A stretch of 64,000 nt of DNA, from contig NZ_QXNY01000005.1 of assembly GCF_003572205.1 (NCBI RefSeq), forward strand, positions 248,001 through 312,000, read 5' to 3'. This document shows, in pieces, positions 24,977 through 57,953 of this stretch. Source of the DNA: Algihabitans albus (GTDB lineage: Bacteria > Pseudomonadota > Alphaproteobacteria > Kiloniellales > DSM-21159). The notes under the pieces are model-generated. The model was not told where the DNA came from. It did no database searches and worked only from the letters and a program-made list of their open reading frames with translations. The translations under genes were made by a program, and so were the position numbers. Within the stretch, counting starts at the first letter, position 1; every line of letters begins with the position of its first letter.

Positions 24977-25104
24977 ACCGGATCGCCACCGTTCGGAACC
25001 CGGCCCGCGGCCGCTTCGCCGGCGGCGCAGTGGACGCAGCCTCTTGGACCGAACAGCAATTGGACTTTGCTCCGGACGCCCCTCCGGCTATCTAGAGTGC
25101 GATC

Positions 25105-25140
25105 GTCACGGGCGGAAGCGGATTGGCTTCCGCCCGTGAC
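25105..25140. repeat. 15-bp perfect hairpin in the marR-Rieske gap
   Basis: GTCACGGGCGGAAGC (25105-25119) and GCTTCCGCCCGTGAC (25126-25140) flank a 6-nt loop. It has no T-tract, so if it terminates marR it does so poorly. It is the only structure I see in the 24977-25251 gap. Confidence 0.6.
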
Positions 25141-25251
25141 GTGACTCGCTCTCCTGCCGTGGTGAGAGAGTAGAGGCGATGAGAGGCGTATTTACGCTTT
25201 CAGACTGCGAAATCACGTCCGATGACTTGTAGGACAGCCGGTGGGGGATCT

Positions 25252-53949: not shown

Positions 53950-54330
53950 CTGGTTTCGCGATGATCCACTCCCACGCGATCGTCGCCGAGCGTTTCCATG
54001 CGCCACTCGGGTGAGCAGTCTCCGGTCGTTTTACCTGGAAAAACAAGACTTTCGTGCCGATGGCGCGCGATCTTTAGAAGTCGTCAAGCTCGGGCGGCTT
54101 TCCGGAGGCGCCGTTGCAGTTCCGCCGATCTGGGATACTGTGTCACGCCTCCTGCGTTATCTCTTGTCTATTTTGGCTTGGAAAGCTTCTATAAATCGAA
54201 TCCAAATCCCTTAAAGCAACTAAAAATAGGTAATTCTGCGTATAATTTGGGTAGTATTCATTTCAAGTTAAGGGTTTTTGTCTATTTTTGATCATAGTTA
54301 TTATAACAATTCACGTGAAAAGCAGTTTTG
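53950..54330 (+). other. gene-free region turning strongly A/T-rich before the histidine kinase
   Basis: The first 200 bp are unremarkable. From about 54170 to 54320 the sequence is far more A/T-rich than anything else in the window, with several possible TATAAT-like boxes (for example TATAAT at 54240-54245). It must contain the kinase promoter; no gene or clear operator is visible. Confidence 0.5.
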
Positions 54331-55647
54331 ATGTCGAAGATGCTGACTGCTATCTCAGGCGTGCCCGTGCCTTTTAACGAGGGCTATCGCCTTAGCGTTC
54401 TGGAAAACTGCGAAGCTTTGGATCAACCGCTCGATCCGGAATTCCAAAGGATCGTCCGGCTGGCCTCTCGCCGTTTCGCCGTGCCGATTGCATTGGTATC
54501 GCTCATCGACAGCGAGCGTCAGTGGTTCTTTGCGCAGGTAGGTCTCGCCGCACGCGAGACACCGCGCGATCAAGCCTTTTGCGCCCATGCCATTGTCGCG
54601 AGTTCTCCCTTGATCGTTCGCGACGCATCGCAGGATCCGCGCTTTTCGGACAACCCTCTGGTCATCGGGCCGCCACACATTCGATTCTACGCAGGCGTGC
54701 CGCTCATCATCGATGGATCCGCTCTCGGAACGCTTTGCATCGTCGGCTTCGAGCCGCGGCCGGAGTTCAGTGCCGAGGACCTCGTCGATCTCGAGGATCT
54801 GGCCGGTCTGACGACCAGTCTTCTGAAAGCGCGCCGCGCCGTCGGCGCGACGGCTCATAGTGAGCAGGTCGAGCTGGAAAGAGAGCGAATGCAGGCCCTG
54901 GCCCTGCTCAGCCACGAACTGCGTACGCCGCTCAATGCGATCATCGGTTTCGCCGATTTGATAGCGGAGGAAGTCAGAGGGCCGATCACTCCGCCGGTCT
55001 ATCGTGGCTACGCCGAATCGATGCGGGACGGCGGTCGCCGATTGGAGCGCTTCGCTGAGCGTGTGTTGCGGTACACGGAGGTTGCGTACGGGCAGGTAGA
55101 GGTCAGCGAGGAGCGGATCGACGCCTACACTCTGGCCGAGCGTGCCTGTAGCCTCGTGGCGGCGCGGGCGATGGCCGCGGACATCGCGCTGCGGATCGAG
55201 CCGAGTGAGAACTCCGCCGAGCGCCTGGTACTGCGCGGCGATCCGGCCTTGCTCGAGCAGGCACTATTTCAAGTGCTGTCCAATGCAATCGAGTATGGTT
55301 CCGTCGGGCAAGGCGGAGACGCCGGTAAGACGACGTCTGCAGATGTCGTGCTGACCTGGGGGGCGAGCGACGGCGGTGTCAGTTTCGCCGTTCGCGATAG
55401 AGGCGCTGGCCTGTCGCCGGACAGATGGGAGACCCTGATCGCTCCGTTTAGCAGCGGTGGCGACGTTTTCAGCCGAGGAAACTGCGACGGCGGAGACTGC
55501 GGCAGTCTGGGGCTTGGACTGGCATTGGCGAAGCGATTGACGGAACTTCACGGCGGTACCTTGACGCTGGACAACTGCGGCGAAGAAGGCGGCTGCACAA
55601 TCCGTCTCACACTCCCGCATTGGCGCAGTGTCGTCGACCCGGACTAG
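54331..55647 (+). CDS. GAF-domain sensor histidine kinase
   Basis: 438 aa, soluble. A GAF domain (about 30-165: IVRLASRRFAVPIALVSLID, DQAFCAHAIVASSPLIVRDA, YAGVPLIIDGSALGTLCIVG), HisKA with the phospho-His in LSHELRTPLNAIIGF, then HATPase (FQVLSNAIEYGS, GLGLALAKRLTELHGG). No membrane helix, so it senses a cytoplasmic ligand, redox state or chromophore. It sits between the two arms of the photolyase island, with no response regulator adjacent. Its stop lies in the first bases of structured repeat A. Confidence 0.9.
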   Translation: MSKMLTAISGVPVPFNEGYRLSVLENCEALDQPLDPEFQRIVRLASRRFAVPIALVSLIDSERQWFFAQVGLAARETPRDQAFCAHAIVASSPLIVRDASQDPRFSDNPLVIGPPHIRFYAGVPLIIDGSALGTLCIVGFEPRPEFSAEDLVDLEDLAGLTTSLLKARRAVGATAHSEQVELERERMQALALLSHELRTPLNAIIGFADLIAEEVRGPITPPVYRGYAESMRDGGRRLERFAERVLRYTEVAYGQVEVSEERIDAYTLAERACSLVAARAMAADIALRIEPSENSAERLVLRGDPALLEQALFQVLSNAIEYGSVGQGGDAGKTTSADVVLTWGASDGGVSFAVRDRGAGLSPDRWETLIAPFSSGGDVFSRGNCDGGDCGSLGLGLALAKRLTELHGGTLTLDNCGEEGGCTIRLTLPHWRSVVDPD

Positions 55648-55791
55648 AGCCTGTTGTGATCGTATGGACTCGCTTCGCGGTTCCGCCGATCCCAAGAAAC
55701 AGACTCTCGCACTTTGAATCGAGACTGGATTTAGCGTAATCGCCGGACCCAATACGTGGGCCCGACTGATCACTATCTGGTCTAGGTATCG
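55646..55791 (+). repeat. structured direct repeat, copy A (about 146 bp)
   Basis: Begins AGAGCCTGTTGT within the kinase stop codon and is co-linear with copy B at 56468. The first 57 nt differ at only about six positions; the rest is more diverged. Both halves can fold: CTGTT...AACAG encloses a GATCG/CGATC stem, and a second hairpin (GGACCCA 55745-55751 / TGGGCCC 55757-55763) sits inside outer arms 55718-55730 and 55775-55789 that pair mostly with G-U wobbles. Confidence 0.8.
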
Positions 55792-55874
55792 TCCTAGCCA
55801 AGGTTAGGCGCGATCATCGTAGTCGGAAGCGCGATCGCGATCGCACCTAAAACGATACGTCTCCAGGGCGGCGA

Positions 55875-56456
55875 CTACTCGGCTGCGCGTTGGTGCCGTA
55901 TTCCGCTCTGCTGACTATCCGCCAGGCCGTCTTTCTGGAAGAAGATCGTAGCCGATCCGACTTGGAAGCCCCATTTGCTGACATAGGCGCGATTGACCAT
56001 CGTCCCGTCGTCCTGCAGGAACATCCAGTCCTCGAAATGTACGTTCCAAGTCCGTTCGCCGACCTGGAGATCGAGGTTGTAGCTCCAGGTGAAGGCGTTT
56101 CCGGCGGTTTGACCGCGCGCAACGCCGGTCACGTCGTCGGCGCTGCCCTCGTAGGTGTTCTCGCCTGTTTTCGTCAGCGTCCAGATGCGTTGGTCGATCT
56201 CGCCGTCGGCGTAGAAGAAGTCTTCGATCAGTGTGAGCGTCTGGCCGTCCCAGGTGCCTTCGATGTCGACCGTGAACTGTCGGCGCAGGTTGCCGAAGCG
56301 ATCCTCGAAAATCCCCCATGCCTTTGTCTGGCCGGCGAAGAACTCCTCTAACACCAGCTTCGGTGCGCGACCCTCGAAATCCTCGATATCCATTGACCTA
56401 CACCCTGTGATGACCGTCACGGCAACCAGCACTGCGGCCAGTGAAAGACGTTGCAT
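55875..56456 (-). CDS. DUF3833-family lipoprotein
   Basis: 193 aa. The lipoprotein signal is LAAVLVAVTVITGCRSM with the lipobox cysteine at 19. The DUF3833 body has EEFFAGQTKAWGIFEDRFGN, FTVDIEGTWDGQTLTLIEDF, GNAFTWSYNLDLQV and FEDWMFLQDDGTMVNRAYVS. It is usually found with cfa-like, DUF1365 and photolyase genes. Last gene of the minus-strand arm, separated from the transporter by repeat B and flanked downstream by repeat A. Confidence 0.88.
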   Translation of the reverse strand: MQRLSLAAVLVAVTVITGCRSMDIEDFEGRAPKLVLEEFFAGQTKAWGIFEDRFGNLRRQFTVDIEGTWDGQTLTLIEDFFYADGEIDQRIWTLTKTGENTYEGSADDVTGVARGQTAGNAFTWSYNLDLQVGERTWNVHFEDWMFLQDDGTMVNRAYVSKWGFQVGSATIFFQKDGLADSQQSGIRHQRAAE

Positions 56457-56467
56457 GTCTTACCTCG

Positions 56468-56611
56468 AGAGCCTGTTGTCATCGTCTGGATCCGCTTCGC
56501 GGTTCCGTCGATCACAAGAAACAGCCTCTTCCTATTTGAATCCAGACCAGATCCAACGTCACCGTCGGACTCGCAAAGCGAGTCAGACTGATCACTGTCT
56601 GGTCTGGATAC
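56468..56611 (+). repeat. structured direct repeat, copy B (about 144 bp)
   Basis: Same orientation as copy A. It contains a perfect 12-bp inverted repeat (ATCCAGACCAGA 56540-56551 / TCTGGTCTGGAT 56598-56609) enclosing a second hairpin (GACTCGC 56568-56574 / GCGAGTC 56578-56584). Its right end supplies the last codons and stop of the GPH transporter on the minus strand, and its left end lies 11 bp before the DUF3833 start. Confidence 0.85.
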
Positions 56612-57953
56612 GTTGAAGTTCTCGCCTTTGGATCAGCCGTTGAATACGGGCCTGAGTTTGCGGTCCGATGGGAAAGCCTGCCACGGTCCAGATGCTGGCC
56701 AGTTTGAAGACGACGGGGAGCAGAGCGTAGAGCGCAGCGAGAGCGAGTAGCGCAGACGCGCTGTTGACCTCTGCCTGTGGGTCGAACCCGAAGAGATCGA
56801 GCAGGGGAAACGCCAGTCCGGCCGCAAGCGCCAGCGAAAGCTTGTTGGCCATGCCCCAGAGCGCGAAGTAGAGCCCGGCACGTTGCCGGCCCGACTTCAA
56901 GCGGTCGAGGTCGATCACATCGGCCTGCATGGAGGAGGGGAGCGCCTGATCGGCCCCCAGACTGACACCCGTCAGCACGGTGACGAGCAGGAACCACCAA
57001 ACATCGCCTTCGCCGAGAAAGGGCACCCAGACGAAAACCAGGCACGCCCAGGCTATGGAAAAAATCCAGGTTCGATGTTTTCCGAAACGATAGGACAGTT
57101 TGAGCCAGATCGGGACCGCCGCGACGGCACTGAGGAAGTAGGTCAGCAAAAGCACAGCCTGCCAAGCCTCCGCTTCGGGCCGTAGCACATGCCCGATGTA
57201 GAGCAGAAACAGGCTGGCCGGCAGGCCGTTGGCGACGCCGTTCAGAAAGTAGGCTGCGAGAAGCCGTCCGAAGGGCTTGTTGCGGACCAGCAGGCGGAAC
57301 CCTTGGCGAAGGCTGAAGCTACTGGTCGCGCGCCGAACCTGGTTGTCCGGAACGCGCCAAAGCGCCAAGGCAACGGCCAGCGGCAATGTCAGCGTGAAGC
57401 CCCAGGCGATCAAGCGCATCGTTTCGCCGACGTCGCCGCGCGTCACCATCAGCAGCCCGACGGTCAAGACCGTGCCGGTCACCATGAAGAGCTCGCGGCT
57501 CATGGCGATCCGGCTGCGCTGATGATAGTCGGGCGAGAGTTCCGCACCCCAGGCCTGATGGGCCAGCACCAGGAGCGTACCGCCCAGGTAGGCGATCATC
57601 GTCCAGATCAGCAGGTGCAGCGCACCGGACCCTTCCGGCGGTACGAAAAGAAACCAGATCGACACCATCAGGATTGGCATGCCGGCGAGGATGAAGGGCT
57701 TGCGCCGGCCGAAGCGCCCTCCGCTGCGGTCCGACAGCCAGCCGACCAGGGGATCGGTGACCATATCCCACAGACGTGCGCCGAGCAGGGCCGCACCGAC
57801 CGCTGTCAGGCCGATGCCGAGATCCTGGGCATAGAAAGGCGGTAGGAAGACGTAGAGCGGCAGTTGCTGAGTCGCCATCGGCAAGCCGAGCAGACCGAAG
57901 GCGGTCAACATGGACCAGGGTACGCGACCGCCTTTCGCGACGTTGTCGCTCAC
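56592..57953 (-). CDS. GPH/MFS-2-type transporter
   Basis: 453 aa, 12 helices, of the glycoside-pentoside-hexuronide:cation symporter group: GARLWDMVTDPLVGWLSDRS, FGRRKPFILAGMP, HQAWGAELSPDYHQRSRIAM, SLGADQALPSSMQADVIDLD. In photolyase/cfa clusters these carriers are common and may act on lipids rather than sugars. The final residues come from structured repeat B. It follows the cfa-like gene by 34 bp. Confidence 0.87.
   Translation of the reverse strand: MSDNVAKGGRVPWSMLTAFGLLGLPMATQQLPLYVFLPPFYAQDLGIGLTAVGAALLGARLWDMVTDPLVGWLSDRSGGRFGRRKPFILAGMPILMVSIWFLFVPPEGSGALHLLIWTMIAYLGGTLLVLAHQAWGAELSPDYHQRSRIAMSRELFMVTGTVLTVGLLMVTRGDVGETMRLIAWGFTLTLPLAVALALWRVPDNQVRRATSSFSLRQGFRLLVRNKPFGRLLAAYFLNGVANGLPASLFLLYIGHVLRPEAEAWQAVLLLTYFLSAVAAVPIWLKLSYRFGKHRTWIFSIAWACLVFVWVPFLGEGDVWWFLLVTVLTGVSLGADQALPSSMQADVIDLDRLKSGRQRAGLYFALWGMANKLSLALAAGLAFPLLDLFGFDPQAEVNSASALLALAALYALLPVVFKLASIWTVAGFPIGPQTQARIQRLIQRRELQRIQTRQ

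Follow-up and report, generated by a model that had tools for sequence, protein, structure and literature searches.

Dispersed copies of a putative small two-hairpin mobile element on either side of a DUF3833 gene in Algihabitans albus

The window analysed here is a stretch of 64,000 nucleotides from the Algihabitans albus genome (contig NZ_QXNY01000005.1, positions 248,001 to 312,000), in which two copies, A and B, of a short structured repeat (hereafter the element) lie on either side of a DUF3833 gene (PF12915, E 5.6e-66). A repeat search of the window recovered them as a pair of 143-nt direct repeats (55646-55788 and 56468-56610), 78% identical and 822 bp apart; an earlier note, made from the sequence alone, had described two structured direct repeats flanking this gene in the same orientation. 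An alignment of the 37 full-length copies of the same genome set the edges of copy A at 55644-55785, with CTAG at both ends, and those of copy B at 56466-56607, with CGAG on the left and CTGG on the right, both decayed. Based on the fold and the pair counts, each copy comprised two hairpins, the left one about 64 nt and the right one about 66 nt long, separated by an 11-nt spacer. The kinase gene ends in a TAG stop (55645-55647) that sits within the left CTAG of copy A, and the open reading frame (ORF) of the MFS transporter ends at 56592, inside copy B. The features of the locus are the following:

55644 to 55785, plus strand: element copy A, full length (37-copy alignment; R3 covariance model, 75.5 bits)
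55645 to 55708, plus strand: hairpin 1 (left arm) of copy A (element fold; pair counts)
55720 to 55785, plus strand: hairpin 2 (right arm) of copy A, probable mirror relative of hairpin 1 (fold, orientation test, pair counts)
56466 to 56607, plus strand: full-length element copy B, divergent from copy A and with decayed ends (alignment; R3, 76 bits)
56467 to 56530, plus strand: hairpin 1 of copy B (fold; pair counts)
56542 to 56607, plus strand: hairpin 2 of copy B, with an exact outer stem (repeat search; fold)
55645 to 55647, plus strand: kinase TAG stop, made of the left TA and the first base (G) of copy A (ORF list; stop analysis)
56592 to 56594, minus strand: MFS transporter stop codon TGA, within copy B (ORF list)
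54328 to 55647, plus strand: GAF/HisKA/HATPase histidine kinase, neighbour (ORF, domain search)
55875 to 56456, minus strand: DUF3833 gene, between the copies (ORF, domain search)
56592 to 57953, minus strand: MFS_2 transporter, neighbour, reading into copy B (ORF, domain search)

The whole-genome search proposed in the earlier note, run with blastn using A and B as queries, returned 37 full-length and 5 partial copies in the 4.68-Mb genome. At E ≤ 1 there were 42 matches to A and 43 to B; five weak ones with E above 0.007, each either short or lying opposite a copy on the other strand, were left out. Forty of the 42 matches to A, A itself counted, had E ≤ 2e-10, so the similarity of A and B exceeds chance. 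The full-length copies measured 138-143 bp (exactly 142 in 29 of the 37), and only these entered the alignment, the 5 partial copies being left out. Identity among the copies had a median of 85% and reached 98% in the closest pair. The closest copy to A, at another locus, was 94% identical to it and the closest to B, also at another locus, 80%, compared with 77% between A and B; since each is nearer to a copy elsewhere than to the other, A and B are read as separate insertions. The R1 covariance model added more diverged copies in this genome (e.g. C3:701792 and C2:195882), with 98 matches at E ≤ 1, many of them on the opposite strand of known copies. Taken together, the copies of this genome look like leftovers of past bursts. 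Shortened forms of about 62-85 bp were also seen (C1:20483, L058; C1:177514, L062; C2:476084, L063), with CTAG at both ends and most of one hairpin gone, as if half-elements arise or persist.

Hairpins had been claimed for both copies, together with a perfect 12-bp outer stem in B. The stem was exact, and the RNA fold of B was far better than that of its shuffles (z -6.3; 0 of 200 as good), whereas the fold of A taken alone was modest (z -1.3; 20 of 200 shuffles as good). Hairpin 1 aligned to the reverse complement of hairpin 2 with a score of 54 (shuffled maximum 38.5), and in the direct orientation with a score of 45.5, equal to the shuffled maximum; the direct orientation also scores because each hairpin is itself nearly palindromic. 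The two hairpins are thus probably similar sequences in mirror orientation. When 42 loci were scanned, the model matched on both strands at 43 of 45 places. Read by eye, the pattern in relatives was TA-GAGC...GATC, a stem, GTGAATC...GCTC-TA, a spacer and then the mirror of these; the inner arm of each hairpin carried a bulge of 3 nt, the letters of which differed in some members of the class.

Covariation was assessed in an order-wide set of 46 distinct elements (11 from the own genome and 35 from relatives), thinned from 154 candidates, in which 77.6% of cells pair. Cells changed on both sides of a pair numbered 376, compared with 140.7 (sd 9.4) after shuffling and 93-121 with the partners slid, and 45 of the 55 stem pairs showed such double-sided change. 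The stems thus covary strongly across the order, and compensatory changes in relatives were what the earlier note had expected of an element family. Stem mismatches, counted over the pairs retained in at least 70% of rows, were equally divided across the order between G.T (69) and A.C (71), and therefore gave no sign of a favoured RNA strand. The own copies had 142 G.T and 36 A.C mismatches; 99 of the 142 G.T lay in four columns, one column holding 26 A.C was excluded by the filter, and the G.T excess is mostly inherited. A GANTC (CcrM) site was present in 36 of the 37 own copies (15.6 expected from single-base shuffling), in 24 of the 25 class loci that remained once 3 of 28 had been omitted for short flanks (loci found by a model containing those columns), and in 102 of 102 copies from relatives, a figure biased by the search pattern.

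The search of related genomes with covariance models, also proposed in the earlier note, showed how far the layout extends. Of the 58 genomes of the order, 23 had R1 matches at E ≤ 0.1, the own one among them, with the highest counts in G000 (53), G015 (47), G045 (Pelagibius litoralis; 35), G012 (24), G001 (21) and G011 (20); these counts include some places matched on both strands. A pattern scan gave Pelagibius litoralis, Tistlia consotensis and Aquibaculum arenosum among the matches listed. Blastn with A across the 58 genomes matched the own genome only, and blastn with three elements against plasmids gave no match. The same-genus genomes had other stem sequences and were matched by R1 and not by blastn; as blastn missed the relatives, covariance models were needed. 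In P. litoralis, four copies were identical over 141 bp at four loci with different flanks, which suggests recent movement. The pattern matches listed also included an Anaerolineae metagenome-assembled genome (MAG; L217), a Candidatus Helicobacter avicola MAG (L260) and Brevibacillus fortis (L269), which may reflect chance, contamination or transfer.

At the class level, the R2 model matched at least 43 of 385 genomes (E ≤ 0.001), a lower bound because the search scored 8 candidates per genome, and the class loci spanned about 109-142 nt. On pSymB of Sinorhizobium meliloti, R3 matched 8 places (best E 7.7e-8, weakest 0.003), each with two hairpins and most with TA at both ends, over 104-119 bp. 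One of these pSymB elements occurred at 36 places in pSymB and had matches in 246 plasmid records, chiefly of Sinorhizobium, Rhizobium and Ensifer. R3 found no match in five other named alphaproteobacterial plasmids, searched with stricter filters, or in two 50-kb Caulobacterales pieces.

Empty sites were sought for 3 of the 8 pSymB places. At site 1, S. meliloti 1021 reads CTAG-element-CTAG and strain LMB1 has a single CTAG; at site 2, strain 1021 reads TTAG-element-CTAG, and M270, S. kummerowiae and USDA1021 have TTAG. The bases common to both flanks are CTAG at site 1 and TAGAG at site 2, overlapping in TAG. Flanking bases were then tabulated in 102 copies from relatives, gathered by a pattern that favours one subfamily. 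The left TA was present in 94 of the 102, preceded by C (74), T (12), A (6) or G (2), and the right TA in 81, followed by G (64), A (14) or C (3). Where the right TA was followed by A or C (17 copies), the left TA was in every case followed by G, a position at which the pattern permitted G or A; the G thus belongs to the element, which leaves TA as the duplicated bases. A count of the first base at the right end, C in 20 of 20, was disregarded as circular, the pattern having fixed that base. From the S. meliloti sites and the flanking bases of other copies together, we infer a 2-bp TA target duplication. The target is YTAR-like and mostly CTAG. A four-base CTAG duplication was ruled out by the TTAG empty site, whose filled counterpart ends in CTAG on the right, and by unequal-ended copies found without the pattern (L165, and GTAG and TTAG copies of the own genome).

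The placement of the copies relative to genes was examined with a rough gene caller whose codon scores were derived from the window; this single 64-kb stretch also provided the null for stop codons. A TAG stop of a flanking gene was formed by 22 of the 37 own copies (on the left in 14, on the right in 11 and on both sides in 3). None of the 37 lay inside a called gene, as against 16 of the window's 43 CTAG sites (p 1e-5). Comparing the share at stops with that of non-genic CTAG sites did not show any active aiming at stop codons (p 0.31); as this share is not significantly higher, CTAG targeting and the loss of harmful insertions suffice. The element supplies a G after the left TA and a C before the right TA, and with these two terminal bases it can complete a TAG for the genes on either side. 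Between convergent genes lay 23 of the 37 own copies (62%); in the window, the corresponding counts were 9 of 58 neighbouring gene pairs and 4 of 27 non-genic CTAG sites. This excess may reflect the loss of copies within operons. Among relatives, once 17 of the 102 copies with less than 300 bp of flank had been excluded, 44 of the remaining 85 were at stops and 1 was inside a gene.

Based on these results, copies A and B very probably arose by separate insertions of a non-autonomous mobile DNA element some 142 bp long, made of two bulged hairpins, probably mirrored, around a short spacer, and inserting at TA. A trans-acting enzyme would recognise the ends or the hairpins of the element and insert it at a TA, duplicating this TA. 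The TA followed by the G of the element would then read TAG on one strand, and its final C followed by TA would read TAG on the other, so that insertion at a TAG or TAA stop would keep the gene closed. Copies at stops and between convergent genes would be tolerated, and copies inside genes would be lost. The small mobile or regulatory element family proposed in the earlier note is supported by the 37 full-length genomic copies and by the covariation across the order, with filled and empty sites in the S. meliloti relatives. Of the types offered in that note, MITE-like (resembling a miniature inverted-repeat transposable element) fits best.

Several observations weigh against this interpretation. 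The empty sites at base resolution come from S. meliloti, which is linked to the family by model R3 and the shared layout, and presence or absence alone cannot separate gain from loss. The third pSymB site (L357), set against LMB1 (L386), showed a partly matching, shortened hairpin instead of a clean empty site. The order yielded only a diverged pair of filled and empty sites, with flanks 71-79% alike (blastn), and none came from the own genus; of the MAGs compared at this locus, L248 (Pelagibius) and L251 (Rhodospirillales) carry an element and L168, also Pelagibius, has the empty site. The share of own copies at stops (22 of 37) did not differ significantly from that of the non-genic CTAG sites of the window (12 of 27; p 0.31). 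Covariation was weak within the 37 own copies (24 double-sided cells compared with 13.5, sd 3.9; 3 of 500 shuffles as high), and RNAalifold on the same copies predicted 16 pairs, 0 of them with compensatory change, a result that is uninformative. Lastly, the searches yielded no mobilising enzyme for the element: in the own genome, Pfam DDE_3, Y1_Tnp and DDE_Tnp_1 had 0 matches at E ≤ 0.001, some short contigs being masked. A further candidate pair for an empty site, L182/L203, was too diverged to use.

Among the 23 genomes carrying the element, Y1_Tnp had no match in 12, including P. litoralis, with its 35 model matches, and the same-genus, one-contig genome G001. DDE_3 had none in 9, again including P. 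litoralis, and both were absent from 6 (the own genome, G006, G007, G011, G045 and G050); the genome-wide search for DDE_Tnp_1 covered the own genome. RAYT and IS630 were therefore unsupported as movers, being absent from many carriers. The surroundings of 52 transposase loci (30 Y1 and 22 of 30 IS630) were scanned with R3, which found a full element at 2 of them, on one side and more than 500 nt from the transposase match, and a partial hairpin at 1. The 22 IS630 loci accounted for one of the full elements, on one side, and for the partial hairpin, with the ends of the insertion sequences left undefined. In P. litoralis, an insertion sequence at about 700-1500 of L190 carried a DDE_Tnp_1/DDE_Tnp_1_2-type transposase fragment, split in frame; its right end abuts CTAG and its terminal letters are unlike those of the element. 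At 1-360 of L290, from G015, a genome rich in model matches, the frame of a DDE_Tnp_1_2-type transposase runs into element-like sequence where its TAG stop would be expected.

The element could tentatively be seen as a miniature inverted-repeat transposable element (MITE) of an IS630-like or IS5/IS427-like insertion sequence, sharing its terminal repeats and its TA target. A TA duplication in a YTAR context is also made by IS711, according to the part of its description consulted (PMC2266754), and TA is likewise the target given for RUP and IS630-Spn1 in the part of a 2007 review that treats them (PMC2229807). Such an origin is opposed by the absence of DDE_3 from the own genome and from the 9 carriers, P. 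litoralis among them, by the lack of DDE_Tnp_1 in the own genome, where it was searched for, and by the end letters of the one DDE_Tnp_1-type element of P. litoralis. The 52 transposase loci may also speak against it, with their 2 distant one-sided elements and single partial hairpin, as does the pairing itself, which is retained despite changes of letters, unlike in plain terminal repeats.

A bolder proposal, to which a rather low probability is given, is that an unrecognised type of transposition reads bulged DNA hairpins in the manner of single-strand transposases and leaves a double-strand TA duplication. It would be shared by a class-wide superfamily now scattered under Caulobacter, Rhizobium and Brucella names, whose terminal G and C would have been adapted to restore a TAG stop on either strand.

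REP-like elements can act in cis as RNA, as terminators, stabilisers or riboregulators. It is nonetheless improbable that the copies are cis-acting RNA (a terminator, mRNA stabiliser or riboregulator) under selection at the 3' ends of genes. The excess of copies between convergent genes, the strong stems and the predominance of G.T over A.C in the own copies agree with such a role. However, Rfam had 0 matches at E ≤ 1 in 55500-56800, no terminator-like site was found in 55400-56900, G.T and A.C were equal across the order, the own excess being mostly inherited, and related elements were present in some S. meliloti records and absent from others. Of the structured RNA suggested in the earlier note, a strand-specific form is not favoured, given the equal mismatch counts across the order and the stops formed for genes on either side.

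It is very unlikely that the element is a REPIN, in which RAYT, a Y1 tyrosine transposase, moves two mirrored REP hairpins as a unit and without target duplication. The resemblance of hairpin 1 to the reverse complement of hairpin 2 and the matches on both strands at 43 of 45 places recall such a pair, and this part of the REPIN-like type named in the earlier note stood. The mirror orientation is not decisive, since the direct orientation reaches the shuffled maximum, and the enzyme does not fit: Y1_Tnp is absent here and from 12 of the 23 carriers, including P. litoralis and G001. Y1 enzymes work in a single-strand mode, and a TA duplication such as the one proposed here is not what their insertion leaves. 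Moreover, the ends are mostly CTAG and not the GTAG tag given for REP sequences in the excerpt consulted (PMC3733652). Finally, a single local duplication event at the DUF3833 gene, suggested by two co-oriented copies 822 bp apart, was refuted by the 37 full-length copies dispersed over the genome and by the greater likeness of A (94%) and of B (80%) to copies elsewhere than to one another (77%); the earlier note had also judged the similarity not to be chance.

The two-hairpin mobile element preferred here is filed as a CIR-type repeat, a likeness drawn from the description and not from the Caulobacter CIR1-4 sequences. In the passage of the 2007 review that describes CIR (PMC2229807), it has two long inverted-repeat arms and a linker, TA at both termini, a GANTC site, an intergenic location and a length of about 110 bp; its mobility is left unexplained there and its target duplication is entered as '?'. 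The element shares the two arms with a linker, the TA at both ends, GANTC, the intergenic location, the alphaproteobacterial hosts and the unexplained mobility of that description. It measures 138-143 bp here (about 109-142 nt for class loci) compared with about 110 bp for CIR, a descriptive length in the review that was not taken as excluding, and its target duplication would be TA, from the S. meliloti relatives and the other copies, where the passage on CIR has the question mark. As for RIME of Sinorhizobium and Rhizobium, the S. meliloti pSymB members have two hairpins and, in most, TA ends, but are 104-119 bp long; found by the model rather than by a match to the RIME consensus, they are probably among the repeats called RIME.

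Bru-RS1 and Bru-RS2 of Brucella are, in the parts of two reports that treat them, palindromic intergenic repeats of 103-105 bp tied to IS711 (PMC2267715, PMC2266754), which duplicates the TA of YTAR (PMC2266754). Their likeness to the element, again one of description and as far as those parts go, lies in the palindromic intergenic repeats and in the TA/YTAR link through IS711, and this tie, with the TA duplication of IS711, is a lead on the enzyme. RUP of Streptococcus pneumoniae, as portrayed in the passage of the review on it (PMC2229807), is also small, non-autonomous and inserted at TA; it has IS630-Spn1-like terminal repeats, whereas the element has two hairpins and IS630 was not found in 9 of the 23 carriers. 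The paired hairpins, probably mirrored here, are shared with REPIN and BIME, from which the element differs in occurring without RAYT in 12 of the 23 carriers, in its proposed TA duplication and in its end motif.

The S. meliloti records give sites at base resolution and point to TA duplication, and a search for the enzyme could start in P. litoralis and S. meliloti. Should the model matches represent one family, they would make up a widespread superfamily instead of a set of local oddities, and the G and C at its ends would account for a dense repeat lying on stop codons without breaking genes.

A third member of the family was also matched in the window:

25092 to 25202, strand not assigned: third, decayed family member, left hairpin intact, stem letters differing (R3, 29.6 bits, E 2.1e-5; sequence read)

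This decayed member has a MarR-type regulator gene on one side and a Rieske gene on the other.

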